Below are positions 1 through 62,520 of a stretch of DNA of 64,000 nucleotides, piece after piece (the first letter of the stretch is position 1; each line of letters starts with the position of its first letter). The DNA is from Uranotaenia lowii (taxonomy: Eukaryota > Arthropoda > Insecta > Diptera > Culicidae), in the NCBI RefSeq assembly GCF_029784155.1, contig NC_073693.1, forward strand, positions 149,980,843 to 150,044,842, in the 5' to 3' direction. Below the pieces are notes generated by a model that searched no databases, had not been told where the DNA came from, and saw nothing but the letters and a program-made list of their open reading frames with translations. The translations under genes were made by a program, and so were the position numbers.

Positions 1-160
1 GTTGTAGCCGAGACTCCCGGTGATGTTAAATGGCTAATTGCCACCTTTGAAGTTGCCAGCGCGGGCACGTTGTGGCCGAGGCGAGGCTGGCAGTTGTAGC
101 CGAGAGTTCCGGAGATGCTGAATGGCTAAATGCCACCTTTCCTCCGGCAAAAGTTGCAGG
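1..160. repeat. Two imperfect copies of a 92-bp tandem unit
   Basis: A unit beginning GTTGTAGCCGAG starts at position 1 and again at 93. Both copies continue with a block ending in ATGGCTAAxTGCCACCTTT. The array may extend left of the window. No reading frame in it resembles a known protein. Confidence 0.7.
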
Positions 161-1740
161 AATCGATGGAAACCTCGAAGGTGCTTGATGGTGGATAAAA
201 GAAGGCCGCCTGTGTTGGACATAAGGCGTTTGTTAGAGGAAAAGGTTGCAGGCTTTTTTTTTTTTTTTGAAGGTGGTGTCTTACCTGAGCGACCCTCTTG
301 TTCTTCTTTTTCTTTTCCGCAGTCTTGAGCTCGAATTTACCCTTTTAGGTGGGCGTGTGTGCACCTAGAAGCCGTGAATAGAATGGTATTAGCACTAAAC
401 CATTAGTTTGTTAGGTCAGTTAGGTGTCTCACCTTCCAGTGGGGCTCTGCCCTCTACGCTTCTTCCGCGAGCACGTGCCGCGTGGCTGGTATGCGCCTTG
501 TCGGAGCTAAAGCGAAACATAGGCGTTTTCTGTTAATTTTACGGCACTTTGCCCGCTCGAATTTAACATACCTTTTCCTTTCAGTGCTGAGGAGCTGTCG
601 TTTGCGGTTTTCCTCCGATTTTCCTCCGATTTTCCTGTGTGAAACACTACCGCGCTACACTTCGCTCTCGTGGCGATCGTTTTTTTTATTCGCACCCGGA
701 CGGAAATGATGATGACATTTCCCGGGTTTTCCAGCTCACGCTAAACGTGAAATACCGTGTATTTTACACGCCGAGTATTTTGTCGTGTTTTTGGGTAAAT
801 TTTAACGACACGCTATGAATTATCAACATGGGGATGGGTTTTTTGGTTGCCAAATTATCGTATCATATTATTTAGGACTAGAAACATCAAATGAACTTTA
901 AATTGTAACAAAAGATCACAAAAGTTGTTTTGAATTCCAGTAGAATTGTGTAAAGCTCAATATTATATCCCACTGTACAATTAAGCAATCTTTCATGCTT
1001 GCGATCTATGATGACATATTATTTCCATGAAAGGACGTACAGTAATTGTAAGAACATCGTATAATGGAATTTAAACAATCTTCAGATTGTCGAATTGATT
1101 AACAGTACAGTAAATAGCTAGCTAAGATCGCACAGCGCTGAATACAATTAATCGATTGTAATAGAATCGTCCATGAGATAGGTTAAAGTTGTATATCAAA
1201 AAACGGCATCTATAAATAGATTTGGAGTCCGAAATGATGCAGTCAGTGGTACTTTATACGATCAACTGATTTTTAAACGGAACTCTCAACTGTACATGAA
1301 CAAATTGGCTTGTTTATATCAATATAAAATGGCGCCGAGGAAGTATCGAAGGACAGGGATCGGAACGTTGTGAGTTCGAGACTGAGGAAAAAGAGACACA
1401 TAAAGTTGTATATGGTTCAATTTTTTTTCGCAGTAAACATTAAATTCTTTTGTATTAATGTTCACGGCGATTCTTAGTAAAATCGTCATAAAGGAAAAAT
1501 ATAATTGCTTTGGGATACAGTAACAATAAATTGTATTAAATGGCGAAGAAAGTTGTACAAACCTCAGGCTACCTGCAAAAGGAAATTGTAATCAAATTGT
1601 AGGGCAGGCAATAAAAAGTTGTAAGTTGTACAATCCTAAGATTTTATGCAAAGCAAAGTTGCTATCAAATTGTTGAAAACGCAATACAAAGTTTTATATT
1701 TTCAAGGTGAGCAAATTTTGGTCCGTATATTGCCTCCACT
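161..1740. other. No gene recognised; possible 5' region of the PDZ gene
   Basis: This stretch should contain or precede the missing first exon(s) of the PDZ gene at 2787-5231, but I could not pick out a convincing coding exon. It holds short runs of T (about 250-270) and scattered short repeats containing AAGTTGTA between 1380 and 1640. Open frames here are short and look like chance. Confidence 0.4.
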
Positions 1741-19884: not shown

Positions 19885-20120
19885 TGACGCCATTTGCTCA
19901 TGTTTTGCGTACGCCATTTTTATCTCTGAAGACAGCAAAGCAAGACAATCGTGTATCCCTTTGCCCCTTCGAAACCCAAATTGAGTATCTGAAAGAAAGG
20001 AGACCATTTGTTTCCACCCATTTATCCAATCGGAACAAAATGATTTTCTCCATCAATTTCCGAATGCAAGACAACATCGCTATTGGACTGTACGAATTAA
20101 AATCGGACGCAGGTTTCCCA

Positions 20121-21122
20121 CACTGAACAAAATTGGGCTATAAGCTTTATTAGAAATTCTAGTATTTTCGCACTACTAGAAAATCCAATACTTTTTATCA
20201 ATAGAGAAAGGATTGAATTTATAGGAATTCCAATGAATTTTAAAGCAAGCCAAATTCATAAAATTTATTGTTTAATGTAATGAAATGAATAATTTTATCG
20301 CGTAATAAAATATGCTCGTTCAGTTTATTAGTTTTATTCAAATTTATTTCCATGTTGAATAATTATATGAAGTTTTTATTGATAGTCAATACATTTTATT
20401 CTCGTCTACCAAACAAACTCGATCGACAATTTCACACACAATTCACTACTTTCTGGAGGACTAGCAATGTACCGACAATTCATCTATGCTCAAATTTTTC
20501 GTTTAAATCGGGTGTGGTTAAGGTGTTGGCCGCTGACCACATTTCGTATTGCTATCTGGTGTTTCCGTCTGCAGACTACATTAGATTTATTTTTTTCCGA
20601 CTATTCTGACAATTTGATGTAATCTAAAAGCAAACCACAATTTCAATTTCAACATAAATTAATTTTTAAAATCGCGGATTACCTGTTCTGTTGTAGTATA
20701 AAATCGTACTCGCAGCCGCTCAAATCCGGAGTTTTTCTTCTGGGCTGCTACCCCTCTGGGATACAAAGATTTACCTAAAGAAGGATACATATATCATCAA
20801 TATCCACGGCGCATTTTGAAATTTATCAATTTCTATTTCGATAATCACATTAAAAATAATTTACTTACCAATCGAAAAACCAACAAACTTGAAACGAACT
20901 CAAGTACACGGAAAGGACGATTTATCCCGCCAAATGTACTTTTTTCAAACTGATGAAATTTATAGGAAATTCTTGTATACTTTGCTTGGGACAGAAAAAT
21001 TTTGTAATCTATTGGACTTTCTTATAATTTTTACTGGATTTGTCTTTAGCTTCTATTAGTACCAGAACTATAAGATTTATTGGATCAATCTTTTAAATTT
21101 CATAGCCTGGTTTGGTTCAGTG
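20121..21122. mobile_element. TIR element, CACTGAAC family, copy 1
   Basis: The ends are CACTGAACAAAATTGGGCTAT (20121) and the inverse, ending GGTTTGGTTCAGTG (21122). Subterminal sequence rich in AAATTTATTGGATTTTCC-like motifs is shared with the copies at 43604, 48364 and 57785. The interior differs from them: on the minus strand an open stretch at about 20780-20690 ends at a consensus donor (ACAG/GTAATCC) and an acceptor-like TGTCAG follows near 20610. It is inserted in the RT of the shredded retrotransposon. Confidence 0.8.
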
Positions 21123-37356: not shown

Positions 37357-38781
37357 ATGACGATGGTAGCAGGGTCCAAGGACCTTTCGCAGGAACCACG
37401 CAGAAGTGCGCGAATGGTGTCGCTGACTCTTGGTAGTCAACCGGCACGTTGCAAGGTTACCTTGAGTTCGAAAAAGCAACTTGTATCAAACAAGAGAGTC
37501 CAGCCTGGGATGAATAAGCGCATGTCAGGTCCACTGTTCTCAACTGACACTGGAAAACAAAGCTCGGGCACCGAGCCGTCCTCACCTATTGAAATAAGCA
37601 TGGATGAAAGAATTATTTTCCTAGAACCGGAAAAAATATCAGGAAATATTACCAAACATCAACTGGTGGTGGCCAAAATGTTAAAGGATGCTGAGGTAAC
37701 ATACAAGGAGATTTCCGAATTGGGACGCTTTAGATTTAAAGTTATCCTAGATTCAATGGAAGCGTACGAGAGTATCCAGAAAATCGACTTAACGAAGCAC
37801 AATTTGAAGATATTCCAGCCCAAATCTACAACAGAAACTGTAGCTTTTGTGCGAGGAATCCCGGTGGATTTTGACGAAAAGGATGTACTAGACAACATAG
37901 AATGTGACTTCGAAGTCACCAAAGTTGAAAGGATTAAGCGCAAAAGGAAGGAGAACTTGGTACCCACAGAAAATATGAAGATAACGGTGCAGGGTGGAAA
38001 AGTTCCGGAAAAAGTAATTATCTATGGCTGTCCATTCAAAGCTGAGATGTACGTTTACCCAGTAAAACAGTGCTTCAAATGCTGGAAGTTTGGACACCTG
38101 AAGTAGTTCTGTATATCCAGGCAACGGTGCCAAGTCTGCGCCATGGTGCATCCTGGAAAAGAAGAAGATTGTAACAATGTACCCCGTTGCCTTAATTGCA
38201 AAGGAAGGCATAGTGCAGGTGATAAGGAATGCCCCGAGAGGCACAGACGGTTACAAATAACGGAGGAGATGAGGAAAAAAGGAGTTTCATTCAAAGAGGC
38301 GGAATGCAATTTCCCGAAACTATCCAACAGGTTTGATATTCTTCAGACGGAAGACGATTTTCCCAGCATCATTGCTGTGGACGAAAATGACCGAGGTTTT
38401 CCAACCGAACAAGCAAACTGGGGCACACAAAGAATGAGGCTAAGAAAAACTTACAGCCAACGCGAGGCATTTGATTCTGGAAGACGGGACAGAAGAATTT
38501 CTACTGAAAACGAGCCATGCAATGCAAATTTCGTGGAAGCGGTAGTAGCTGGAGTGAGAAGAGAATTGTTGAGATCCTTGCGAGAAAAAGCTTGGCTTTC
38601 ACCACTTATTGAACTGAGAGATCAGACGACCGAAAAATTGAAAAGCTGTAAGGACGGAATACAATCTGATGAGTTAGCCATGTTCATTTACGGAAGGCTA
38701 AACGAAATCATAGAACAAGAGTTTAGTAGCACAAGGCACGACCAGAACAGGATAGGAAGACCAACTCAAAATGGCCAGTAA
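37357..38781 (+). pseudogene. ORF1 (zinc-knuckle) of the plus-strand non-LTR element, one TAG
   Basis: The frame is open from 37357 to 38781 except for a TAG at 38104-38106. That stop lies inside the first zinc knuckle (CFKCWKFGHLK-stop-FC), between the histidine and the last cysteine. Two more knuckles follow (CQVCAMVHPGKEEDC, CLNCKGRHSAGDKEC), then a conserved FKEAECNFPKLSNRFDIL segment. Its end overlaps the ORF2 ATG by 11 nt. The product would package element RNA. Confidence 0.85.
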
Positions 38782-41562
38782 AAACTTAAAAATTCTTCAA
38801 TTGAATATACAATCAATTCGACCAAGTGACAAAAGAGATGTACTATCCAGATTCCTGAAATGTAATGAATTTCAGATAGCGTTGTTGCAAGAAATATGGC
38901 TACGGGAAGCGGAAAATTTTCAAATGAAGGAATTTCAATTAGTATCAAAACGCAGGCAGACCGGATATGGAGGTGTTGGATTGCTCATATCAAACGAACT
39001 GACTGCAGAGGAGATGAGGTTACCAGACCTAAAATTTTTAGAAGGAGTTGCAGTGAAAATAATAAGAGGTTTCGATCCTGTAATCCTGATTTCGGTGTAT
39101 CTTCCACCAGATAGGACAGACAGCCAGTTAACTATTAACCAGCAAAAAGCGTTAGCCACGAATGAGATTAAAATATTGTTTGATTGGTTAGAAAAACAAT
39201 CCGGAGAAATCTTGTTGGGAGCTGACTTTAACGCTCATCACGAAGCATGGAGCGAAGATTTTCCTACGTGTTATAGAGGTAAACTTTTGGGAGATATGAT
39301 TGAAAATTCAAGACTTATTTTATTAAATGATGGTAGTCCAACAACTATCAGTTTACCAGGAAACCGTGACTCAGCAATTGACATCACTTTGGGAACTCCA
39401 GGATTAATAAGAAAAACTAGATGGAAGGTTATAGAAGAGGACTTTAGAAGCAACCACTTACCAATAGAAATCGAAATTTCCAGTTCTATCGAAATTGCAA
39501 AAATAAAAACAACAAAAGTTAATGAAAATAAAGTAGTAGAGTACCTCAATAAAATTAGGCCACAATTCTTTTATGATGCCAACGAAATGCAAGTAATATT
39601 TGATGAAGCTATACAACATGGCTCGTATGTTATTAAAAACAAAAAAAGCAACTTCTTGAAGAAATGGTGGACCCAAGAAATAGACCAAATATATCAGCAA
39701 AAAAGAGAAGCATTAAAAATATACAATAGAAGCAAATTGCTGGAAGATTTTCTAGAATTTAAAAGAAAAAGAGCCATATTTAAAAGGGAATTTCGGAAAG
39801 CCAAAAGAAAATATATAGAAGCAACTCTCGGAAAAAATTGATGAAAATACTTCGGCTAAACATGTCTGGAATATAGTCAAAGGAATTGACACGGCATTGA
39901 CAGGGGAATCTAAATCATTAAAACCAATCTCAATTGATGATGGTACGGCGTTCATGAACCATTATTTCACAGAAGATGAAAACCATCTTAATCTTCCTCG
40001 AAATACAACAATTCCAATACTTACCGGCTACGAAATTCCACTCAAAGCGACCGAAATTTTGGATGTCCTCAGGAAAAAGAAAAATTATTCGGCTCCAGGG
40101 GAGGATAAAGTTTCATACTCAATAATTAAACGCCTGAATTTTGATTTACAGCTCAAAATATGCGAAATGCTAAACATGGTCTTCATGACAGAACAAATCC
40201 CTGAAAAGTGGCGAATAACGGAAATAAAACCGATTCCGAAAAATCGTTCACAAGTGGGCCCCGCCTCAAAAAGACCCATAAGCCTAATGAATGTGAACCT
40301 CAAACTAATAAACTCTGTAGTGAAAAATAGAATAGCTGAGATTACCGAAATTTTGAACTTAATTCCCAAAAATTCCTTTGGGTTTCGGAAATTTTGTTCG
40401 GCGCAGACTTGTGTTAACTTTTTAGTAAATTCCATCAAAGAAGCAAAAGCAAAGAAACAGGAATGTATAGTGGCCTTCTTAGATATCTCGAGAGCTTTTG
40501 ACAAAGTCAAAACAGAAATACTGTTAGAAACTTTAGCCTTGCAAGATATCCCACAAAAACTAATATCTTGGTTGCATTCCTACCTAAGCTGTAGAAGATT
40601 AGCTCTTAAAACGGATAAAGGAGTAATTAAAAAAACTGTTTCGGAAGGTTTACCGCAGGGTTGCCCTTTGTCCCCGGTTCTTTTTAATCTGTATACTGCA
40701 GCATTACACCAATTACAAAAAGAAAACTGCACTTTCCTCCAATTTGCAGATGATATTGCTGTTTTAGCAATTGATGATTCTTTGAAAGGAGCTGAATCGA
40801 ACTTAAACGAATTTCTTAAAAGCCTAGTCGAAACAATGAAAAATTTAAATTTAGAGGTCAACCCTAGCAAATGCGCTGCTATCCCTTTTACATACAAAAA
40901 AATAGACCATCTGAAAGTAAAAATAAATGGAAATCAAATAGCAATTAATAACACACATCAGTATCTTGGGTACACACTCGATCGAGGATTGTGTCACCGA
41001 AAACACATTGAAAGCGTCAGAAAGAAAGCCATCGAAAAACTACCTCTTATGAAACTTCTCGCTGGACGTTTCTCTCATGCTAATCCAGAATCTTTGGTAA
41101 AAATTGGTAATGCCATGATTAGAAGCAAATTAGAATATGGAGGACAGATTTACGGAGGGGCTGCAGAAACAAATTTGCAAAAAATTCAAACCGCACAAAA
41201 CGCTTTTTTGAGAATATCTTTAAAATATTTGAAATCGACCCCAATTCACGTAATGCTGTCTGAAACAGGACAACTGCCCATGAGAACAAGAATAGAACTC
41301 CTAACCAAAAGGGAGCTAATAAGAAGTGTCTTCAACAAGAATCAGCTTGTCGAATTTGTCGAAAGAACAGTGGCAGATGGAAGGCCAAATGGCTCTTATT
41401 TTACTAAAATAATCGATCAAAATTTAGACTTGGTAAGTCAAATTCACCCTAAAGACCCTGACATCGCGCTGGAAAGTAGGCTTCAAAGGACTCCAACAGT
41501 GGACATAAGCTTCGTTCAATCGCTAGTAAAAATCGATTTCAACTGGTTTCTGTCAACTGATA
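38771..41562 (+). pseudogene. ORF2, endonuclease and reverse transcriptase part (frameshifted)
   Basis: From the ATG at 38771: APE endonuclease with LQLNIQSIRPSDKR, LLQEIWL, LGADFNAHHEAW and SNHLPIEIEI. A one-base frameshift lies near 39828-39840. The RT follows, with FGFRKFCSAQTCV, VAFLDISRAFDKV, GLPQGCPLSPVLFNLY and the catalytic LQFADDIAVLA. The frame is cut at 41562 by the insertion of a MITE, and the protein continues with STDR before the cut and HIDW after it, at 56979. Confidence 0.9.
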
Positions 41563-42130
41563 GGCTGATGTCATGCTGAAACAACTAGCAACGCAACGCA
41601 ACGCAACGTTCCAATAAGATTGCGTTGCATTGCATTGGTATGTCATGCTGGCGCGACCTGTCACTTTGAAATTCCCTACAAATCATCACTTCTCTACATC
41701 TGATAATGCTTTGAATCGTCTCCTTTCTTTCCGGAGCCATCAAAAACTCATCAAATCACGACCCGGATTGCAAGAATGCCGAAATTTGAACCGACAAAAT
41801 TCCTTGTTTTTTTGCCGGAACTAAGAATTCATGAAAATTTTCTCGCCGATTAGGATAGTTTTTAGTTTATTATCACAAGTTCGGACAGATCTTCGTAATA
41901 TTGTGCTTAAAACCCGGAATCACTGCTTCAAATCGAGAAAAAACAATGTTCCTATTGGATTTCCTACTAGTCGCGCTACTAAACACATTGGCATCAGATT
42001 GGTCGCGCTACTCAAAGCGACCAGTATGACAGGTCTGCGCGATTTCCATGGAGATCAAATGAGAGCTGGTTAGTCGTGTGAACGTTGCGTTGTAGGTCGC
42101 GTTGCTAGTTGCTTCAGCATGACATCAGCC
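41563..42130. mobile_element. TIR element (GGCTGATGTCATGCTGAAAC ends), 568 bp
   Basis: Long inverted termini: GGCTGATGTCATGCTGAAAC followed by AACTAGCAACGCAACGC at the left, and the inverse ending CAGCATGACATCAGCC at 42130. ATA is repeated at 41560-41562 and 42131-42133. Short GCAAC/GTTGC repeats sit inside the ends. No coding. It is inserted in ORF2 of the non-LTR element. Confidence 0.85.
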
Positions 42131-43603
42131 ATAGATGTTCAACGAGCCAATGTTTTGGTCGAAACAAGTCGGGTCGTTCACATTCTTGTTTGAGCTGCCG
42201 TGGCGCATAGACGTGACTTTTTACTGAACAAGATACAGTTTTGAAATAAGTGCTTCAAAAGTTACTTTGTGATAAAAGTTTTATTACCTTTTTGATTATT
42301 GGGTACTCGAAATGAGTGTCACAACCGGTGCCCCACCGGGGGCACCTATGGACGGCATTTTAGAAGGTTGTGAAAAAACGTTAGATCCTGCGAAAAAAGA
42401 TGGCGGGAAAAGAGTTTTCGAAAAATACTTGTACGCTAACAGTGACACTGGCCCGTATAAAGTTATTATTGAAAAAGAAGAAGAAAAGGACAAACCAATT
42501 GGAATCAATAAGATCTCTGTCGGAATAGTTCTAAAGCAAAACGGTTTCACGAAATCAATAATGGACATCCGAAAAATAGGACGCTCGAAAGTATTGGTTT
42601 ATTTTCAAGATTTTGCTGCAGCAAACAGGCTCGTGAGTTGTAAAAATTTGTCTTTGAGGAAATATGCAGCTTATATTCCGAAAGGTTTCGTGTCTGTAAA
42701 GGGCGTTATAAGTGGCATCCCTGAAGACATCGACGTCAAGGAGCTACAAAGTGAAATCGATTCAAACAAGGAGATCTTGGAGATTTTCCGGATGCATCGA
42801 TTCGTCAGTAAGGACAATAAGGTTCCATTAAAAAAGGTATGTGTTGTATTCCGTTCCAATAAGCTTCCGGATTCAGTAAGAATATATGCGGTTAATATGA
42901 GAGTGGAGGCATATGTAAACAGAGCGGTCATGTGCAACGCCTGTTTAAGGTATGGTCATAAAGCCGATAACTGCAAAGGTAGGAAACGATGTGATAACTG
43001 TGGAAACGCGGAAGATGAAAATCACGATATCAAAAATTGCGTCAACCTGACGAAATGTGTGCACTGCAAGGAAAGCCACAAAGCGTCAGACCCCAAATGT
43101 CCGGAAAGAGCTAAGCAGGCAGCCATTAAGAAATTGATGGCTTGCCAAAATTTAACCTTCCAAGAAGCTAAAGAAGAGTTCAGGGTGGAAACTCGTAATG
43201 GATTCGATATTCTCTCCAACATGAGAGAATTTCCGAGCATTTACGAAAGTTTTGCGACAGTGACTGCGAAAAGCGTTAAGCCTCCAACAAAACCACAAAA
43301 TCAACCTAGAAAACCAGTTGCTTCTACTAGCGCAAGTGGTGGAAATAGTGGGCAAACTAGGGTAAACATTCAACACATTCAGAAAACGAAACAAAGCGTA
43401 AACAACGCTGATGACGATAGTTGCAGTTCGGTACAACCAAAAAAACGAAAAACACATACATCTTCAGATCCAAATGATGATACGGAAAATCAACAAATGA
43501 TGCCCGTACAACAATACTTGGAACTTCGAAAACGGTGGGATGACCAAATGCAAATATTGGCAAACCAGAGAGAGAGTTATAAGTCTGCTATGAAGAAGTC
43601 ATA

Positions 43604-44756
43604 CACTGAACCAAATTAGGCGATTAAATTTATAAGGTCATTCTAATAAATCTTACTATTCACAGTCAAATTTTAGCTACTAAATTATCCTTTGAAAGAT
43701 ATAGCAAAATCCAATAAATTGTATCTGCTTCACTCACTTGGTGAAATGCATAGGACAATCCAATAATTATGAAACCAAATTGGGCTATAAAATTTATAGG
43801 GTCAATCTAATAAATCTTATCATTCAGTGTTTGATAGAAACTAACGATAAATCCATTACGAAATATGGAAAAATCCAATGAATTTCATAAGCTTGTTCTA
43901 CCTAGGAAAACATATATAAAATTCCTATACATTTCATCATTCAAAAGTTAGTATACATGTTGGCGTGTCCGTTTCAATTCTGTTTGGAGAACATAAATCA
44001 AGAAGAACGATTGTTTGTGTTGAGCCAGTAATTTTTGACCGGAAGATTTTACCAGTTGAATGGCAGCAAACAAAACTAAAATACCATCGCCGTGATAAAA
44101 GCTAAACATTTATGAACGTAAGTTAGAAAAATGGAACGGCTGAACGACCTGGTGTTAATATTTTGTTATCTATCCTAACAGGTAAAATACGGGACTTAAA
44201 ATGACGGCCAGCAGCGGAGAAATACAGATCCGGACTTCAGCTAGTAAGCACACGGTTCCATTCTTTGCCATGCATAGGTAATTCATACTTTTTTTCAAAA
44301 ACATAATTCGTTTGAAACTAAATGCTGATTTTTTCCCAGGAAAAACATCAATCCACCAGAACAGCAGCGCCCGACCAGCTGAATCAGGATTTATGCACCA
44401 GCCATGATCAATGCATGGAACCGCATCCTCATCAATAAGTGTTTGAAGTGCAGTGCAGTATAACGTTTACATTTTTGGAAGATTTGTTGTAATAAATGTT
44501 TAACGAGATCAATTTAGTTATTTATATGAATAAGATGGAAAATAGAAATTGAATTACAGGCGTATTTGATTGCAATGATGGAACCATTCATAACACTAGA
44601 TTAGATAATAAATCATAATAATTTCGCTCTCCATAACATTCATTGAAATTTCTTATAAAATAAATCATTCGTCTACTGATAAAAAGTATTGGATTTTCCT
44701 TTAGTGCGAAAACACTAGAATTCCCAATAAACCTTATAGCCCGATTTTGTTCAGTG
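43604..44756. mobile_element. TIR element, CACTGAAC family, copy 2 (1153 bp)
   Basis: The ends are CACTGAACCAAATTAGG and, inverted, CCCGATTTTGTTCAGTG, flanked by TA at 43602-43603 and 44757-44758. On the plus strand the interior holds an exon-like block at about 44182-44277 bounded by CCTAACAG and GTAATTC. It contains an ATG at 44200 (MTASSGEIQIRTSASKHTV) and is followed by a TTTTTCCCAG acceptor at 44338 and a further open stretch. This cargo differs from the other copies. Confidence 0.85.
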
Positions 44757-45108
44757 TACGCTATGCTTTCACGATACACGCTGGAAATTATTTAACCAAT
44801 TATCGTTAAAAAGTAACCATTTTCACACCTTTCCGCGTTAAGTTATTTTTTGGTTTCTTCCATAGAAGTCATTTTTTGACTTCTCTTGAGAAGTGGAAAT
44901 ATGGTTACTTTTTAACCGCAAGAAATTATTGCGGAGAAGTTGAAAAACGGTTAATTTTGAACCATATCGCAGAATGGAAGGAAAACAGGTAATTTTTTTC
45001 TTAAAAATACTAGAATTGGGATTTCGGATCGAAAGATAAATCATCATCCAGCGTTCTAATACGAATTTATTGGCAATTTCTTAGCACACCTGACCAGGAA
45101 CACGAAAT

Positions 45109-46176
45109 TTAACTCACCCTTACCGCCGCTCTCAGTTTGGCCGACCGACTCCGGGGATTTCGTTCGACCTCCTCGTCACCCGGAAGCACCACATGTTTGG
45201 TCAGTTGCTGCCATCCGGAGCACGGTTTCGTTATACTGTCCATCGCCTGCCGTTCGTGATAAACGGTGTGGCTGGAGTAGCGCAGCGGCAACCGATTGGC
45301 CATATCGTTCAACACGTTACCCATGACGTGCCGCTTCACGATAGTGTCCTCGAGCGAGTGGAACGTTATGGCCACCAGTTTGCCACTAAGCTTCAGATAT
45401 CGCTGGGCCAGCAGCATCCCGTAGTTGATTTCGTTCAGTTCGTTGTTGACAAAAATTCGCAGCGCCTGGAAAGTTTTCGTGGCCGGATGGCTTGGTCTTT
45501 TAAATTTGTCCAATCGGTGCATTCCCGTTCCGAAGCAGGACTGAACGATGTCGGCCAGCTGGTGTGTGGTTTCGATTTTACGCATTGAGTGACGAGCCTC
45601 GATTATGGCAATTTTCCTGTACTGTTTTTCTTCCCCGTAAATTTTCAATATCCGGCTCAAATCGGTTTCGTCAATTTTGGCCAAGACTTCAGCGGCCGTT
45701 GGACTGTCCTGGCATCGATCCTTATCCATTCGCATATCCAGGGGACCGTTTCTGCTAATTGAAGAACCACGCAGTCCTTCATCAAACTGCATCGAGGAAC
45801 AACCGAAATCGAATATGAATCCTTCAATGCAATTTTGTTGAATCTTTAATTCTCGCAATTTTGCGGGAAGCTCGGAAAACCTCCCAAGTACAGGTATGAT
45901 TTGTTTCGGATAACAGGAAGCCAAATCAGTTGCAATCCTATGAGCAATTGGATCTCGATCCAATGCAATAATTTTGGCTTCCGGAGCAGTTTTTCAAATT
46001 TCTTTGGTGTGACCTCCCGCGCCAAAAGTCATATCAACAAATAGCTCTCCGTTCTGAAGTTTCAAAAACGTGACCGTCTCTCTGGCCATAACCGGAACAT
46101 GGCCAACATTCGTGGCAAAGTTTCTGCTTAAAACTAATCCTAATCTTTGAACACCGCCGGCTAATACCTTCCTCAT
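45109..46176 (-). pseudogene. METTL15: METTL15 (mitochondrial RsmH-like rRNA N4-cytidine methyltransferase) with in-frame TGA
   Basis: 356 codons from ATG 46176, one of which is an internal TGA at 45996-45994 (codon 61). The N-terminus MRKVLAGGVQRLGLVLSRNF looks like a mitochondrial presequence. RsmH/MraW motifs follow: HVPVMARETV, the SAM-binding DMTFGAGGHTKE, ALDRDPIAHRIA, FDFGCSSMQFDEGLRG, GPLDMRMD, KTFQALRIFVNNELNE and AITFHSLEDTIVKR, ending RSRSAKLRAAVRVS. Human METTL15 methylates mitochondrial 12S rRNA. The TGA follows GAGGHTKEI, inside the SAM-binding domain, and would truncate the enzyme; the frame is otherwise open. The ATG overlaps the UQCC2 stop (ATGA). It sits within a TIR element, so it is probably a captured, decaying copy. 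Confidence 0.85.
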
Positions 46177-46478
46177 TGCTTGTTCAAGTATTCCATAAAC
46201 TCCGATGAAAGCACGTCCCGGCACTGCTCCCCGGACAGCCCGGTGTCAGGCGATTGAAGCGTCCTCGGGTGTACCTTCAGGTGCACGTCGTTAACCAGAT
46301 TCTCCAACGCTCGATGCTGTCGCGATAGATTTTCGTCGTTCACGGCAATAATGTTGACATTACCCAGCACTCCGGCCAGCTGATCCCGCAGAAACTGTCC
46401 CAGATCCCGCCCGATTTTACTCTGATCCACCGGCCAACGATCCAGAAGCTTGAAAAAGTGATTGTAGTACTGGGACAT
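46173..46478 (-). CDS. UQCC2: UQCC2-like complex III assembly factor
   Basis: 101 residues from ATG 46478: MSQYYNHFFKLLDRWPVDQS, then KIGRDLGQFLRDQLAG, and LENLVNDVHLKVHPR. The Y-x-x-F-x-K-L-x-x-x-WPVD and GRDLGxxLR pattern is that of UQCC2 (human 126 residues), which supports cytochrome b synthesis and complex III assembly in mitochondria. An acceptor TTTTACAG lies 20 nt before the ATG, and a donor TTATT/GTAAGT at about 46587 marks a 5'-UTR intron. The stop TGA overlaps the METTL15 ATG, so the two may be read from one mRNA. Divergent residues are few, and the frame is intact despite its location in a mobile element. Confidence 0.78.
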   Translation of the reverse strand: MSQYYNHFFKLLDRWPVDQSKIGRDLGQFLRDQLAGVLGNVNIIAVNDENLSRQHRALENLVNDVHLKVHPRTLQSPDTGLSGEQCRDVLSSEFMEYLNKQ

Positions 46479-46589
46479 TATACGCACCGACCGGAAGCTG
46501 TAAAATAAATTCTTGTATAACTAATAGTTAATTGTAACTGCAAGGTTACGTTAAACACTTCAGAGACAAATTAGGTAGAATACTTACAA

Positions 46590-47364
46590 TAAGTTCTATA
46601 ACTTTGGCTTCAAAAAACCTTAGTAACCGATTCTAGGGCAGCGGCTTCCAGGCAGTTTTGTTCGCTTCCCGAATGATGTTTGCTTGAATGACGATGATGA
46701 ACCGCAATCGGAAACAATGAGGATACGCTTCCCCCGAATGGATTTTCGCATAAATGCTGCCATCAATAAACAAGGCAGGTAAACGAACCTAGGACATTGT
46801 ATATTCATGGACATTGGATTCAACGGGAAACGTAAAATGCGAACTTACCTTGAAACAGCTAAATTTCAAATGTTGGTTCGATCAATCGTTTCACGGTTCA
46901 GCCAGCTATGATAATTCTTCACTTTCTTCCGGACACAAAATAATCGGCAAGTTACCTTTAATTTAAGGTAAACCCTCTTTGATCTTCAGGGGAAAGAATA
47001 CCCACGATTTTCGTCTTTCCGTAGTCAACAAACCTTGAACATGCCAATGGCTTTCGAATCACTTGGGATGTATTCCGACTAAGCCTGACTACTACAAATA
47101 TGTCGAAACAAAAATACCCCCAGAGAGAACCGCAAGATTAGCCACTCTACAACACGGATGATTCCAGCCAGACCGATTTCGTTTTCGTTTTTTTTTTTGC
47201 AACTTGTCCAAGAGTCACTTAAAATTCTGAATTCGAGGCCTAATTTTCTCACGACTTTTCGAGGGCTCTTCTTTTGATAGCCAGTTCGAGGTAATTTTTA
47301 ACTTACAAACGAACAGAAAAAAAATACACACGAAACCGAAACTCGCCACAGTGCTTCAACTTCC
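46590..47364 (-). other. 5'-UTR exon and upstream region of the UQCC2 copy
   Basis: The untranslated first exon ends at the donor near 46588. Further upstream there is no coding and no recognisable promoter motif. Confidence 0.45.
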
Positions 47365-47800
47365 TTGTGCCTTCAGGTGCACGTCGTTAACCAGATTCTC
47401 CAACGCTCGATGCTGAGATTTTCGTCGTTCACGGCAATAATGTTTACACTACCCAGCACTCCGACCAGCTGATCCCGCAGAAACTGTCCCAGATCCCGCC
47501 CGATTTTACTCTGATTCTCCGGCCAACGTTCCAGCAGCTTGAGAAAGCGAGTGTAGTGCTGGGACACCGTACCGACCGGAAGCTGTAAAATAAATTCTTG
47601 TATAACTAATAATTAATTGTAACTGCAAGGCTACGTTAAGCACTTCAGACAAATTAGGTAGAATACTTGCAATAAGTTCTATAACTTTGGCTTCAAAAAA
47701 CCTTTGATAAATGCTGCCGTGTTTGGTATGCACCACGGGTTAGTAATCGATTCTAGGGCAGCGGCTTCCAGGCAATTTTGTTCGCTTCCCGAATGATGTG
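47365..47800 (-). pseudogene. Second, broken UQCC2 segment
   Basis: A near-duplicate of 46270-46690, including the 5'-UTR intron. The start codon is GTG instead of ATG, the intron donor reads GCAAGT instead of GTAAGT, and a 7-base deletion near 47417 shifts the frame after VNDENLS. It ends before the C-terminal third. Confidence 0.88.
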
Positions 47801-48326
47801 GACCATTCGCTGTGCCATGATGCTGATTTCTTCCGACCGGAGCTTTTCGGAGTGGCTTTTTTTCTCATTTTCGATTGATTTTTACCGGCGGATTTAATCA
47901 AAATTTACCAAAACTTGGCAAAAAAATATTGACAGGCTGAAAAAAAAATCCAAGTTATAAACATGAAATATTGAAAACCGAATACAAGAAAAATTACCAG
48001 TCCAGCACTGAATGTACCGGAAGTTTCCTGAGACAGTGATATTCCAGCAGAGACGCCGACCGACCAGCCCCAGCTCCATCCGGATCACAGGAACAGATTT
48101 ACTTTTAAACATTTTATTCGTTCGCGCTCGGTTTGCTCTACGCGTTTACTCCAAAATGGCGAAGACAAGTTTTTCAACCGTTTTGTGGTTAATACACGAA
48201 AACTACCAAAATGGTTAAAATTTCGCGAAGAAAAAATCTTAAAAAATAACCATATTGATAGTTTTGGAGCAAAAACCATAAAATGGTTATTTTGTAACCA
48301 TAAATGGTTAGATAAAAATGAGCGTG
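47801..48326. other. Right end of the gene-carrying TIR element
   Basis: No coding supported. It contains repeated ATGGTTA/TAACCAT blocks that form the subterminal inverted repeats with 44780-44990. Confidence 0.55.
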
Positions 48327-48363
48327 TATGCTCCAGTCTCCAGACGAAGATGACAGGCACCTA

Positions 48364-49479
48364 CACTGAACGAAATCGGGCGATTAATTTTATAGGGTCA
48401 TTTCAATAATTTCAATCATTCACGGTCCGCATATAAGCTAACGATTTACTCACTAAAAAACTCCGGAAAATTCAATAAATTTTACAGTTGAATCCTAAAA
48501 GAGATTTACCCATTAAAATTTATAGGAAAATCCAATGAATCTCATGAGCCACACTCGATCGGTAGAACGTATAAGAAAATCTGATAAATAATACAGTTTC
48601 GATTAATGATACATTATAAATTTGCTCAAAGATTTTGTTCATTTTTTATGTTGCTGTTCAACGGAAATTGAAGTTGATTAATGTCAGCTCATCCGTACAA
48701 AAAAGTGAAGCTCAACAAATGCAACGGTATGTATTTTGTGTATTTTTAAAAGATGCGTGCGAATTTTTCTAATGATCACAATAGTTTCATATTTCTTTTG
48801 TGGTTTTCAGGATTGAAAGCGAACAGTACCAAGATGAAAATGGACGCCTCAGATCCCCAAATGAAGAAGATGATCTATTATTGGTTTATTGGAAATTGGA
48901 ATTCACGGAACCAACTCACCCATCAATGGTATTGACCGCGAAATTTCGATTCTCTGTGCTAAAGAGGTGAGATAATGTAAAACTTTGTTTTTAATATCTG
49001 AAATTAAATCATTCCTCTTGATTTCAGGTTTGTTTTGTACCAACTTTCCTCTGCTGAGAACCTAAGCCGGAAGTTCTGGTTTCGGATCATCACCATTCTA
49101 TAACGTTAGCACTGGCGACTGTGCCATAGTAATTGCTAAGTGCTTAATAATTCGAAATTTGTCTATAGACAAGAAACAATAAAATTTTCAAAGTAAACAA
49201 TAATTAGTTGCAAGTTTTCGGAAAGAAAATACGAATAGAAATCATAAAAATGAAAACCATAACACAAGCCACCCCATGTATTTGTATTCCATCATTTCGA
49301 ACTGTAACCATTATAAACTTGACGTTCTATAACATTCATTGGAATTTCCGATAAATTTTATCAAAAACTAAAACCTTGCATTGCATTCGATGAGCAAACT
49401 TGTAAAAAGTATTAGATTTCCTATTAGTGCAAAAACACTAGAATTTCCGATATTGTTCATAGCCCGATTTCGTTCAGTG
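48364..49479. mobile_element. TIR element, CACTGAAC family, copy 3 (1116 bp)
   Basis: The ends are CACTGAACGAAATCGGGCG and, inverted, AGCCCGATTTCGTTCAGTG, with TA at 48362-48363 and 49480-49481. It is an apparently identical inverted twin of 57785-58900. It carries the spliced frame described at 48719-49103. Confidence 0.92.
48719..49103 (+). CDS. Unrecognised spliced reading frame inside the CACTGAAC element
   Basis: Exons to 48726 (ATG at 48719), 48811-48966 and 49028-49103 join in frame over two introns with good borders (AACG/GTATGT, TTTTCAG/G, AAGAG/GTGAGA, ATTTCAG/G). The product contains ENGRLRSPNEEDDLLLVYWK and FRFSVLKRFVLYQLSSAENL. The frame is also open upstream of this ATG for about 25 codons, so the true start is uncertain. 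A second frame in exon 2 (60 codons, 48753-48935) is less protein-like. No family is recognised. It may be a fragment copied from a host gene. The same structure exists on the minus strand of 57785-58900. Confidence 0.4.
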
Positions 49480-49675
49480 TAGTAATGATAGAGGTTACCC
49501 AGTCAGGAAAAATCGCCCGAAATCGGCCCGATTTTTGTCCGTACATCTGCTCGATCGGTCCGAAATCGTATAAGAAATCGGGCCGACTTTAGTAGAAAAT
49601 CGCGCGAAAATGAAACACTTTTTCGGACGACGATAAGTTTTCTCAACCAGTTCGAGCAGATCAAATGTCAAAACA

Positions 49676-56140: not shown

Positions 56141-56978
56141 TTGGAATTCAATCAATCTAAACATACCTTACATATTATTAAATTATCGCCGGACAATGGC
56201 TTCTTCTATACGGCGCTCAAAGCATTTCTGAACAGGAACAACGGAAAAAGCAGAAACCGAACTGCGACCAAATTCCACAACACATTTCACAACAATAACG
56301 CACCAAAACAAAACCCGCACCCGGATTGCTGCGATTGAAAACTGCTCGTGTTTCGTTTTGCTCATCGCAGCACTGCGAAAAATATCGTCTGTTTTCGAGC
56401 AATCGAGCAGGCGGATGGAAATCGAGCCGAAAACGAACCGAATTCTAACCGCTAGAATTCGAGTGCCGCCATGTCTGTTTTGCAATCGGCCCGATTGAGC
56501 AAACCTTCCTGACAGGGTATGGACGAGTTAAGCGAAATATTGGGTCCCATTGACCAAGTCCCATATCAGTCTCAAAATAATTCCCATCCGATTTATACAA
56601 CTCAACCAAATGCAAAACGAAATTGAAATAAAATTATTTAATCAAAAGAAAACTAATAAAAGTAAACAAGTTAAGTGAGTGACGATGAATCGTAAATTCA
56701 ACGTTACAAACAGCCGTCAAACGACAAAAATAAGAGAGATGGCGATATGAGGCTCCGTTCCTCAGGCCAAAAAACCTAAAACCCAACAACAACAACAACA
56801 AAAGTCGGGTCGTTGTTCAATGGAGCGAGTTGAAACTAGTCGAAACCAATCCAGCTCGGCAGCAGGATTAGTTTCGACTTGGTAGAAATCGGTCGAAGTC
56901 AATTGGAAAGAGACAGGTGATCAACTGTCAATCCATTTCTACTTGTTTCGACCCGTTTCGACTAGAGTTGATTGAACA

Positions 56979-57784
56979 GACATATAGATTGGTCGGTACG
57001 AACCACAATCGGAAACGTCAAAATGAAAAAGGAAAACGTTTCAGCTCTGCAATGGCAGTCTCGTTTCGCTGAAATGAAAAATACAACCTATCGCAATTGT
57101 AATATTATTTTTACGGACGCAAGTAAAACGGAATTTGGCACAGCGATAGCTCTATTTGATCAGAAATGTAACCAATTAAAGTCAGAAAAAATAAACAACA
57201 ACTTTTCCATCACAAATGCAGAGCTAATGGCCATACTGATGGCATTCAATTGGATACTCCAAAAAGAATACACTGAAGCAGTAGTAATGACAGACTCTGC
57301 TAGCTCGTGTGAAATCTTACGCAACACTAAAGAACTACACAGAAACTTCATCGCATGGAACATCTTTAAACTTCTATCTAAAGCGGGCCATAGACTACAC
57401 AAATTGGCCTGTACAAATTCGATGATTCCGCGTCGATTGTTTGATCTATGCTCGCCCACACACTATACAAACATATTTCACGCGAACACAAATGATTGCT
57501 GGCGAAAACAGCAACAGCAACAAAAAAAACCATCTCCACCCCGGGTGGGAGAATGTTTTGTACAAAATATTTCGATCCCGACCGATTTTACTCCAACCGT
57601 TTGGGCGCTCATTCAAGCAGTGCCATACACTATGCAAATCGTGCTCACAGCGACAAAATTTCATCGAATTTCATCGCATTTGTACAAATGTTGTGTAGTC
57701 TGTGGCCCGCTTAAGAGAGAAATGAAGAAGGTTCGAATCCAATGGATCCCCAGCCACTGCGGGATATTAGGCAACGAACTAGTA
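56979..57784 (+). pseudogene. ORF2 of the plus-strand non-LTR element, RNase H part
   Basis: The frame resumes with HIDWSVRTTIGNVKMKKENV, then RNase H motifs NIIFTDASKTEFG, AELMAILMAF and MTDSASSCEIL. A 330-bp MITE interrupts it at 57382-57711; the last motif IQWIPSHCGILGNELV follows at 57727-57780. All four RNase H catalytic positions are retained. Confidence 0.88.
57382..57711. mobile_element. 330-bp MITE (AGCGGGCCAYAGACTACACAA ends) in RNase H
   Basis: The ends AGCGGGCCATAGACTACAC and the inverse GTGTAGTCTGTGGCCCGCT are flanked by TAA at 57379-57381 and 57712-57714. Its removal restores the RNase H frame (FKLLSK then REMKKVRIQ). TAA fits Harbinger-type insertion. Confidence 0.9.
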
Positions 57785-58900
57785 CACTGAACGAAATCGG
57801 GCTATGAACAATATCGGAAATTCTAGTGTTTTTGCACTAATAGGAAATCTAATACTTTTTACAAGTTTGCTCATCGAATGCAATGCAAGGTTTTAGTTTT
57901 TGATAAAATTTATCGGAAATTCCAATGAATGTTATAGAACGTCAAGTTTATAATGGTTACAGTTCGAAATGATGGAATACAAATACATGGGGTGGCTTGT
58001 GTTATGGTTTTCATTTTTATGATTTCTATTCGTATTTTCTTTCCGAAAACTTGCAACTAATTATTGTTTACTTTGAAAATTTTATTGTTTCTTGTCTATA
58101 GACAAATTTCGAATTATTAAGCACTTAGCAATTACTATGGCACAGTCGCCAGTGCTAACGTTATAGAATGGTGATGATCCGAAACCAGAACTTCCGGCTT
58201 AGGTTCTCAGCAGAGGAAAGTTGGTACAAAACAAACCTGAAATCAAGAGGAATGATTTAATTTCAGATATTAAAAACAAAGTTTTACATTATCTCACCTC
58301 TTTAGCACAGAGAATCGAAATTTCGCGGTCAATACCATTGATGGGTGAGTTGGTTCCGTGAATTCCAATTTCCAATAAACCAATAATAGATCATCTTCTT
58401 CATTTGGGGATCTGAGGCGTCCATTTTCATCTTGGTACTGTTCGCTTTCAATCCTGAAAACCACAAAAGAAATATGAAACTATTGTGATCATTAGAAAAA
58501 TTCGCACGCATCTTTTAAAAATACACAAAATACATACCGTTGCATTTGTTGAGCTTCACTTTTTTGTACGGATGAGCTGACATTAATCAACTTCAATTTC
58601 CGTTGAACAGCAACATAAAAAATGAACAAAATCTTTGAGCAAATTTATAATGTATCATTAATCGAAACTGTATTATTTATCAGATTTTCTTATACGTTCT
58701 ACCGATCGAGTGTGGCTCATGAGATTCATTGGATTTTCCTATAAATTTTAATGGGTAAATCTCTTTTAGGATTCAACTGTAAAATTTATTGAATTTTCCG
58801 GAGTTTTTTAGTGAGTAAATCGTTAGCTTATATGCGGACCGTGAATGATTGAAATTATTGAAATGACCCTATAAAATTAATCGCCCGATTTCGTTCAGTG
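57785..58900. mobile_element. TIR element, CACTGAAC family, copy 4 (1116 bp)
   Basis: Reverse complement of the copy at 48364-49479, with the same length and no difference noticed by eye. TA at 57783-57784 and 58901-58902. Its removal restores GNELV-DQEA in the RNase H C-terminus. Confidence 0.92.
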
Positions 58901-58902
58901 TA

Positions 58903-59213
58903 GATCAGGAAGCTGTAAGAAAAACGAAACAGGTTCAATCAGATTTCACTTCGCTCACAGCAGGGGACGTAATTCTCCTGGCTAAATTGGAGGCTTGGGA
59001 CTCTTGGAATTCACATTTCCAAAACACAAGTTTAACCAAGGGAAGATTTTACGCTCAAATAGAATCCAACCCATTAAAACGAATATGGTTTAAAGAATTG
59101 GTATTGAATAACAAAGAAAAAAGAATATTATCACGTATAAGAACAGGTCATGTTCTCACTAAAAGCAGACTATTTCTGTTAAGATGGATAGGTTATGACA
59201 TCCCAATTAACCA
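58903..59213 (+). pseudogene. ORF2 C-terminal region of the plus-strand non-LTR element
   Basis: Reads DQEAVRKTKQVQSDFTSLTA, then EKRILSRIRTGHVLTKSRLF and LRWIGYDIPIN, where it is cut by the copia element. The frame resumes at 63791. Confidence 0.88.
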
Positions 59214-59227
59214 CTGGGCCCATAACC

Positions 59228-59618
59228 TGTAGAGTTTCTCTATTCAATCGAATAAAACGCGAATACAAACTCTTGTTTAAGGTGATTTTATTTGAGTCAA
59301 AACAGAGTATAGCTTAAAACTAGATCAGTTACATTAGTGATGTTTGTATTTATTTTATGCACTTTCTTCTCGGTGTGCCTATTTCTGATTTGAAGAACCA
59401 TGAACATTTAATCCAGTTGCCCACTACATTGTATCAAACATTGTATCCAATCTCGTGCAATGTTCCGTGCAAGTTGTCCGTTTGACAGATGACAGCTGAC
59501 AGATGAAGTCTCCACGAAATGCGCAGGGTGTTGTTTGTAGAATGTCAAATTGATGTTGTGTGCAATTCACTCGACTTGCATATAATCGCTAGTTCCCGAG
59601 TGAAATGATTTCTCAACA
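59228..59618 (-). repeat. Copia 3' LTR (391 bp)
   Basis: Direct copy of 63400-63790. Followed on its outer side by a 14-nt PBS sequence at 59214-59227. Confidence 0.95.
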
Positions 59619-62520
59619 CTTCCCCTCAATTTGAACATTCAACACGCTGAATAATTTCCGATGCGTTAATTTAGGTAACCCCTTAGTAAATGCATCTGCC
59701 GGTTGATCTACGCTTGGGATGAACTGCAACTTCAATCGGCCTTGTCTGATGAGATCTCGTACAAACATATATTTGATATCCAAATGTTTCATACGCTGAT
59801 GCGCCCTCGGTTCCTCTGCTATGCTGATGCACGGAATGCTATCTTCCATTATGATGAAAGGTGTTAAGTTAATTTCCAATTCGTTGAGAAGGTTTGTTAT
59901 CCACATTCCTTCTTTTGTTGCTGCACAAAGCGCAATAAGTTCTGCTTCGCTCGTTGATAAACTGATTGTTGGCTGACGTTTCGTTGACCACGAAACTAAG
60001 TTGCCATACAGTAAAAATGCATATCCTGATACCGATTTTCGATCGTCAGGATCATTTGCAAAATCTGCATCTCCAAATCCTACTAAACCTGGGTACTCGC
60101 TTTTCTGGCTGTAGATTATTTTTGTATTTCTGGTGCCGCTTAAGTATCTTAAGATACGTTTCAATCCAGACCAATGCCAATCCGTTGCACAGTTGGCATA
60201 TTTGCTTAAAATGCTAACCGCTGCGCAAATATCTGGTCTAGAAATTAATGAGAGATATTGCAAGCATCCCAATAGCTCTCTGTACGGTTGTTCAGTATGT
60301 TTATCTTCAGTTTTGGACCATTTAGTGTTGGTTTCTAGTGGTGTCCCCACTGGTTTACATTTATTCATTCCAAATCTCTGAAGAAGTTTTTCAGTATATT
60401 GTACTTGAGAAATTTCTAACGTTTGATTCTCAAAGTCACGTGTTATTTCCATTCCCAGGAAATGTTTTACTTCATTCAAGTCCTTCATTTGGAATAACCT
60501 TCCAAGTTCCTTTTTGATCCATTTAATGGAATCAATATTTCTGGCTATCAATAGGATGTCGTCTACGTAGAGTATAAGAAATATTCCTTTGGATTTTGAT
60601 TTATAGATACAACAGTCTGTTTTGAGAGGAGTAAAATCAAGAGCTCTCATAGCATCATCAAATCGTTTATTCCATGATCTGCTTGCTTGTTTCAAACCAT
60701 ACAAACTTTTATGCAGGCGTACAGTTTGACTCAACCCATCCTCATTTCGTGGTAATTTCATAAATATTGCTTCATCCAATTCTCCATTTAAAAATGCCGT
60801 CTTGACATCCATTTGATGGACTAATAATTTGTGCTCGTTTGCAAGTGCAAGAATAAGTCGAACACTTTCCAATTTTGCAACAGGTGCATATGTTTCACAG
60901 TAATCAAATCCAGGTCGCTGTGAACATCCCTTTGCTACCAATCTTGCTTTATATCGCCCATCTTCCTTCATTGTGAAAACCCATCTCGAGTGAATTGGTT
61001 TCACTCCTTTTGGAATACAGTTTACCACTGTCCAAGTTTCGTTTTGATGTAATGCATCAAGTTCTTCTTGAATTGCAACTTTCCATTCCGTCCAGTCGTC
61101 CGTTTTCTTCAACTCGTCGATTTGTTGTGGAATATCATTAATGACCGTTGCTAATTTTGCTGAATAATCCGTGAACCAAGCTGGGGGTTTCTTGGTTCTA
61201 TTGCTTCGCCGCAATGTTTGGTTCAAGACGTTGTCACTTATATCGTCTTCTTGAGTTTCATTCGTACTCTCATAATCACTTATTCCAAATGATTCTTCAG
61301 TTTGACCATTATCGATTGAAGTATCTTCTCCAGATACTGATTCTCGGTCCTCAATTTCGTTTTGCTCACTTTCGAATTTATCAATTTTCTCGTGCAAGAT
61401 AACCTCCTGCTTTTCATCAATTAAAATTGATTTATCTTCATTATTTACATTACTGGTTTCATCAAATATAACATTTCTTCCGATTTCAATAGATCGTGTT
61501 TCTTCGTTCCAGAGTCGAAAACCATTATTTGCGTAACCCACAAAAATTAATGTCTCGGTTTTCGAATCTAATTTTTGACGTCTTTCATTCGGAATTTGTT
61601 TGAATGCTTTGCATCCAAAGATCTTTAAATGTTTTACGTTTGGTATTTTCCCATACCACATTTCGTAAGGGGTTTTGTCTTCATTTATCCCGTTTGTAGG
61701 CGATCTATTCAATAGATATTTTGATGCATATAATGCTTCACCCCACATATCTTTTGAAAGTTTACTTTCATAGATCATTGATCTTACCTTTTCCATCAAT
61801 GTTCTATTCATCCGTTCACTCACTCCGTTTTGTTGTGGAGTGTATGGAACTGTGAACATCATCTTTATGCCTTGTTTCTTGCAATGGGATTCAAATTTTG
61901 TATTGGTGTATTCCCCACCATTATCACACCTAAACTTGGAAATTCTAGTTCCAAAGTGTGAACATACCAGTGCTTCATATTCTTCGAATTTCTCGAAGAC
62001 TTCCGATTCCGATGCTCCATCAAATATACCACCACAAAGTGCGTGTAATCATCTATGAAGGTGACGAAGTAACGATACCCATCGTACGTATGCTCCTCCA
62101 TGCTACCACAAACATCTGAATGCACCAATTCTAACGGTCTTTTTGATCTTGGAAGTTCCATCTGTTGATACTTATTGGCTGCTTGCTTTCCTGCCAAACA
62201 AGCATCACATACTTTCGCTTTGCTGATCTCATCGGAAGTAAGATTGATACCCTCAATCATGCCCTTCTTTAAGAGTTTTTCTACACCCGTACTGCTTAGA
62301 TGCCCTAGTCGTTTATGCCATGTCTCTATATTTATTTTGTTTCCAACATATGCTCTTGGTTCCGTCGACTTTCCTTCCCAAACGAGTTCAAGGTAGAACA
62401 GACCGTCATTGTAATTACCCGTGGCTATGATGTCTTCCCCATTTTCGAAGATAACCTCCTCATTTGTAAAAGTAACCCTTTTACCCTGTTTGCTGGACTT
62501 TCTTACTGAAAGTAGATCCT
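59613..62520 (-). pseudogene. Copia pol: integrase, reverse transcriptase, RNase H (one frameshift)
   Basis: From about 62520: a pre-integrase segment WHKRLGHLSSTG, HHCC zinc-finger end CDACLAGKQ and integrase core (HSDVCGSM, FVTFIDDYTHF). A one-base frameshift lies near 62020. The other frame continues through TPQQNGVSERMNRTLMEK and the GYAxxGFR/WNE tail motif. The RT follows (RWVFTMKEDGRYKARLVAKG, the catalytic YVDDILLIA), then RNase H (GFGDADFANDPDDRKSVSGY, SLSTSEAELIAL). The stop lies just inside the 3' LTR. Apart from the frameshift pol is intact, but the N-terminal Gag/protease is lost, so this copy is not autonomous. Confidence 0.92.

Follow-up and report, generated by a model that had tools for sequence, protein, structure and literature searches.

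The element at positions 44777-48326 of the analysed window, a stretch of 64,000 nucleotides from the mosquito Uranotaenia lowii, very probably belongs to a multicopy Pack-TIR of the non-autonomous kind and carries about 3.15 kb of host DNA with the UQCC2-METTL15 unit. The ends, the 2-bp duplications, the at least 12 copies, the two-codon loss common to them and the family members with other interiors were read directly in the genome, and from these we infer capture and transposition.

Ends and cargo of the element

The two inverted ends, each with TA directly outside, are identical at 37 of 47 positions (Table 1), far above random pairs of 47-mers, so that the TIR element of the preliminary description was recovered. 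A chance inverted repeat is ruled out, since none of 200,000 random pairs drawn from the window reached 37 (best 29), and the end pair scored best when 43,466 pairs bounded by TA in the surroundings of the insertion were compared. The 431 bp of both ends contain nine AACCATWTT-like motifs vs 79 in the whole 64 kb (one mismatch; motif picked after viewing these ends). An exact scan of viral contigs with the right tip (32 bases) gave no matches.

Table 1. Coordinates of features in and around the element, in window positions
Feature	Position	Strand	Basis or remark
Gag-like ORF1 of a retroelement, host of the insertion	42312..43601	+	split by three TIR elements
Left target-site duplication (TA)	44775..44776	.	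end comparison, copy flanks
Left terminal inverted repeat, starts CACGCT	44777..44823	+	37/47 vs right end
TE-derived left end, 246 bp	44777..45022	+	common to family members with other interiors
Captured payload, ~3.15 kb, right limit approximate	45023..48170	-	stretch between the two shared ends
AATAAA polyadenylation signal	45066..45071	-	downstream of METTL15
METTL15 pseudogene	45109..46176	-	355 codons vs 357; two codons lost; frame broken by a TGA at 45996-45994
UQCC2 open frame (copy a), 104 codons	46173..46478	-	Pfam match, open frame
Putative kept 5'-UTR intron, GTAAGT...TTTTACAG, 90 nt	46498..46587	-	splice signals alone
Second UQCC2 5' copy (b), truncated	47366..47799	-	GTG at the start codon position; 7-nt deletion
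TE-derived right end, ~156 bp	48171..48326	-	common to other family members
Right terminal inverted repeat, finishes AGCGTG	48280..48326	-	37/47 vs left end
Right target-site duplication (TA)	48327..48328	.	end comparison, copy flanks

Both genes of the two-gene host locus described earlier are recognised by Pfam on the minus strand (METTL15: Methyltransf_5, PF01795, E 2e-60; UQCC2: PF20180, E 1.7e-13), but METTL15 has decayed through the TGA, which directly follows GGHTKEI, and the loss of two codons. Because METTL15 is broken, the window copy is not a working host locus; judged by its reading frames, the pair is decayed cargo without a working METTL15. The coding part of METTL15 is intronless here, and no A-run follows the AATAAA. 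The TGA of UQCC2 overlaps the METTL15 ATG as ATGA (46173-46176), and the putative intron sits just upstream of UQCC2 copy a. Further upstream, copy b differs from copy a by 7.7% over 416 aligned bases. A tblastn search of plasmids with METTL15 returned 61 records, and those listed were bacterial and of rsmH type.

A second, intact locus elsewhere had been named as support for capture, and an intact 357-aa METTL15 is indeed annotated on another chromosome-size contig, C1, apart from the window on C3 (the three large U. lowii contigs, C1, C2 and C3, have 216,245,183, 437,140,353 and 370,270,374 bases). The window frame is 94% identical to this protein. Comparing the 22 differences with 13 outgroup mosquito proteins, we found that the outgroups side with the intact protein at 13 and with the window at 4; at sites invariant in all outgroups, six changes lie on the window side vs one the opposite way. 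What we say of breakpoints, parental introns and copying direction is based on protein identity, the location of the pair in other mosquitoes and outgroup polarity.

UQCC2-METTL15 looks like an old neighbour pair, because UQCC2 and METTL15 are listed on contigs of equal size within each of Toxorhynchites, Sabethes, Malaya and Topomyia, and a single Clunio protein (P0061) holds both domains. Together, the ATGA overlap, the equal contig sizes in four other mosquitoes and the two-domain Clunio protein suggest a conserved dicistronic unit. Among the publications listed by a literature search on METTL15, UQCC2 and dicistronic genes, none mentions METTL15 or UQCC2, and among those listed for U. lowii genomes and transposable elements one names the species.

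Payload copies and relatives with other interiors

The genome was searched with the left 300 bp of the element (44777-45076), and 40 of 469 first-look candidates were scored, so that all counts are lower bounds. At least 40 places match the left end. Twelve of them, including the window, run into the payload at 99-100%, and 28 cover just the first 236-246 bp, at 94-97%. Other elements with the same ends, which had been named as further support, thus exist at 39 further places among the scored matches, and the payload is shared by 11 of these places; given these and the intact METTL15 elsewhere, the window does not hold the only UQCC2-METTL15 copy.

The 12 payload copies are spread over all three large contigs, and all 11 outside the window were fetched and compared (handles beginning with L denote fetched stretches). 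Over their first 1.9 kb, identities range from 95.7 to 99.9%, and the window and L021, at different sites, are 99.9% identical. The 3.55-kb kind is represented by the window, L021 and L028 (left tip altered in the latter), while L023, 3.18 kb long, has a gap in its interior, the right tip is absent from L022 and L024, and L025, L026, L027, L029, L030 and L031 have a different right part at 2.82-2.84 kb. Matching 2-bp flanks were found in all nine payload copies with both tips, the window included (TA in seven, AG in L026 and TG in L029).

All 12 payload copies miss the same two METTL15 codons. The TGA occurs in five (window, L021, L022, L023, L028), and its site is TAA in L024 and a sense codon in the other six. 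None of the 12 has an open METTL15 (longest open stretch 294 of 357). Differences between the METTL15 of the window and of L025 fall on the three codon positions as 9, 10 and 6, with no sign of protein-level constraint. Such a pattern fits one putative capture that was followed by spread and afterwards by neutral decay.

The fetched stretches L032-L039 and L040-L046 hold 17 of the 28 end-only matches, of which 14 could be delimited as elements of 704 to 2491 bp (the right limit of the 2491-bp element is estimated) and three could not (L035, L045 and the third match in L039). A readable tip, or an end inside the fetched stretch, is missing in these three and in L022, L024, L028 and L044; L044 has no right tip. 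All 14 left ends match window positions 1-245 or 1-246 at 94.7-96.7%, and 12 of the 14 share at least 151 bases from the right tip with the window, at 76.8-83.5%; in this region L043 gives a partial match and L044 none at the threshold used. Several members resemble one another for 50-170 further bases past position 246 and the window does not, which makes position 246 look like a breakpoint specific to the METTL15 type.

Among distinct members with both tips, 2-bp flanks match in 11/11 (TA in four, TT in three, AA in two, TG and CG in one each; two units of L039 with identical flanks were counted once). For all insertions with both tips readable, a 2-bp duplication is therefore found in 20/20, or in 20/21 when L043, whose tips are degenerate and whose flanks as read do not match, is counted against. 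The duplication of TA proposed earlier stands for the window copy, but for the family it has to be restated as 2 bp, being TA in 11/20. L039, which has three left ends, contains a member repeated along with its flanks as two units of 99.9% identity, and a 99.7% copy lies elsewhere (L038).

The interiors of 16 elements compared fall into eight clusters. L034 carries ATG4, recognised once a GTAAGT...TTTCAG intron between two exons was spliced out (PF03416, E 3e-17), and its next ATG4 exons, after removal of a second putative intron, give E 5e-14 with the same domain. A related piece of ATG4 occurs in L043 (E 3e-19) and matched the human ATG4A structure 2p82 (E 4.5e-12); a PDB search with the L034 piece returned nothing at 0.01. 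Pfam searches of selected open stretches recognised no host gene in six of the eight interior types and had nothing acceptable beyond ATG4; a transposase did not turn up in the tested open stretches either. The 2.83-kb METTL15 subtype and the L037 element share a 129-bp stretch (79%) and another of 331 bp (70%), which suggests that halves may have been exchanged between family members. The right half of L025 is gene-like sequence joined to the METTL15 payload.

The insertion site in a Gag-like frame

The insertion was said to split a Gag-like ORF, and the short pieces between the elements do match gag relatives, although in the +1 frame only: the score of the pieces downstream of the gene element is matched by 10 of 5000 shuffles, vs 1819/5000 in the same frame and 1764/5000 in the other. 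Without a shift no single frame is significant (232, 162 and 1004 of 2000 shuffles). The argument offered for the split was that removing this and the neighbouring TIR element leaves exactly 445 codons and a stop. This count is reproducible (432 codons + AMLSRYAPVSRRR + stop, frame 0), yet by the frame comparison the ending is a coincidence, because the downstream pieces match gag relatives only with the +1 shift. Nor do two elements suffice: the ORF also holds CACTGAAC elements on the left (43602-44759) and right (48361-49484), and since gag-like pieces carry on past the right one, three elements split it.

The CACTGAAC/TA copies at 48361-49484 and 57780-58903, in opposite orientation, are identical within the element and show a single difference in the flank, therefore pointing to very recent movement. 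Members of this family (43602-44759, 48361-49484 and 20120-21122) have mainly their ends in common; their interiors differ and show exon-intron-like splice signals. The family may also carry gene pieces; Pfam searches of its element interiors found nothing. Retroelement ORFs lie at 37357-41579 and 56972-57790 (reverse transcriptase, E 4e-42; RNase H, E 1e-7), the RNase H frame finishing inside the TIR copy at 57780, and Copia-like polyprotein pieces at 59613-62260 were judged by eye from the ORF list.

Origin of the cargo and comparison with known systems

The proposed course would start with a single DNA-level capture from the parental locus, with METTL15 on the 216-Mb contig, in which host DNA probably came to lie between the ends when the repair of an element that had broken or been excised switched templates. 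Units would then have been moved in trans by a transposase recognising the CACGCT ends, the cargo would have decayed neutrally, and swapping of halves with other members would have given the 2.83-kb subtype. That capture took place at the DNA level, as claimed earlier on account of a kept 5'-UTR intron, is supported by the 5' intron signals of the window copy, by the polyadenylation signal without a tail and above all by sister element L034, whose kept coding introns in ATG4 mean DNA-level capture there.

For most single-copy animal Pack-TIRs, Tan et al. 2021 propose transposition-independent gap filling (PMC8277862). Applied to the window, an old short TIR element in gag would have broken, and UQCC2-METTL15 DNA would have been used to mend it on the spot. 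Host DNA filled in between TE ends shows the same anatomy, and template switching could also explain the duplicated UQCC2 piece. However, the payload recurs in 12 copies with their own 2-bp duplication wherever both tips are readable, and the near-identity of the window and L021 at different sites likewise speaks against it. This recurrence would leave gap filling to account for the founding copy only, and as an account of the window element we regard it as very improbable.

Least credible of all is the view that the host locus was retrocopied or segmentally duplicated and that unrelated TIR elements settled at the edges of the copy afterwards. An intronless METTL15 part and other TIR elements on both sides speak for it, but the same ends and payload recur together in other copies with 2-bp duplications directly outside the tips, and a retrocopy is further contradicted by the missing A-run and the ATG4 introns of the sister element. 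In view of the recurrent ends and payload with their own duplications we reject a retrocopy, a segmental duplication with unrelated edge elements and gap filling in situ as the sole process. It is also hard to believe that the element carries a functional second UQCC2 with METTL15 as a passenger. Copy a is open, and the 15 protein hits included no UQCC2 from U. lowii, a weak point given that METTL15 of Armigeres and Wyeomyia likewise appears without UQCC2 annotated under those names. Against this, of 64 sites that do not vary among six other mosquitoes copy a is changed at 9, a modest excess over the 0-6 of 64-70 sites in a leave-one-out comparison, and no payload copy keeps METTL15 open.

A multicopy Pack-TIR thus remains our preferred reading. 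UQCC2-METTL15 lies between ends shared by members without it, duplications flank the whole unit in every insertion with both tips, introns are kept in the ATG4 of L034 (the window copy has 5' intron signals alone), and the payload is multicopy. Mutator-like elements produce duplications of about 9-11 bp, and Pack-MULEs proper are excluded by 2 bp in 20/20. Tc1/mariner requires TA, and it fails on the 9/20 duplications that are TT, AA, TG, AG or CG. CACTA/EnSpm-Mirage (CMC) elements have CAC-starting tips, a 2-3-bp duplication, subterminal repeats and a CMC transposase; here the CAC tips, the 2 bp and the subterminal AACCATWTT repeats (a post hoc motif) agree, but the tip is CACGCT. With no transposase found in the open stretches tested, the family is assigned to no superfamily.

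On balance we favour, with some reserve, the broader view that this family is an insect counterpart of the plant Pack-MULEs: large (possibly hundreds of copies), recently active, repeatedly capturing whole or intron-containing host gene segments, making payload hybrids and steadily supplying chimeric gene copies. With many copies, among them near-identical recent ones, several interiors and kept introns, such a mosquito family allows tests, in an insect, of how genes are captured and whether new ones can arise in this way. Pack-TIR cargo can pass for duplicated genes, which is a warning for annotation.

TIR gene capture is best known from plants. Captures in the broad animal survey of Tan et al. 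are mostly single-copy and short (PMC8277862). The survey counted 370 animal Pack-TIRs, spread over 55 of 100 species, while insect reference genomes yielded none; the median captured size was 224 bp, and four cases were multicopy, lying far from the parent (PMC8277862). An element with two adjacent animal genes had been called unusual, but animal Pack-TIRs as such had already been described (PMC8277862). No mosquito case appeared among the papers listed by searches of open-licence literature. Like the animal Pack-TIRs described there, the U. lowii element has host sequence in TIR ends and a target-site duplication, with a putative parental METTL15 elsewhere; it is unlike them in its insect host, its two-gene payload of ~3.15 kb, its at least 12 copies and the several interiors within one family (PMC8277862). 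Ssk-FB4 of Drosophila populations, as outlined in that source, is similar in that a TIR element took up a nearly whole fly gene and carried it to several places, but FB4 has 9-10-bp duplications and ~700-bp TIRs, compared with 2 bp and ~47 bp here, and its authors argue for a functional protein family, whereas METTL15 is open in none of the U. lowii payloads (PMC8277862). With plant Pack-MULEs and Pack-CACTAs (Pack-TYPE), the family shares one set of ends with varied host-gene interiors and hybrids (PMC13317346, PMC8616336); unlike them, it resides in an animal, and its 2-bp duplication does not fit Mutator.
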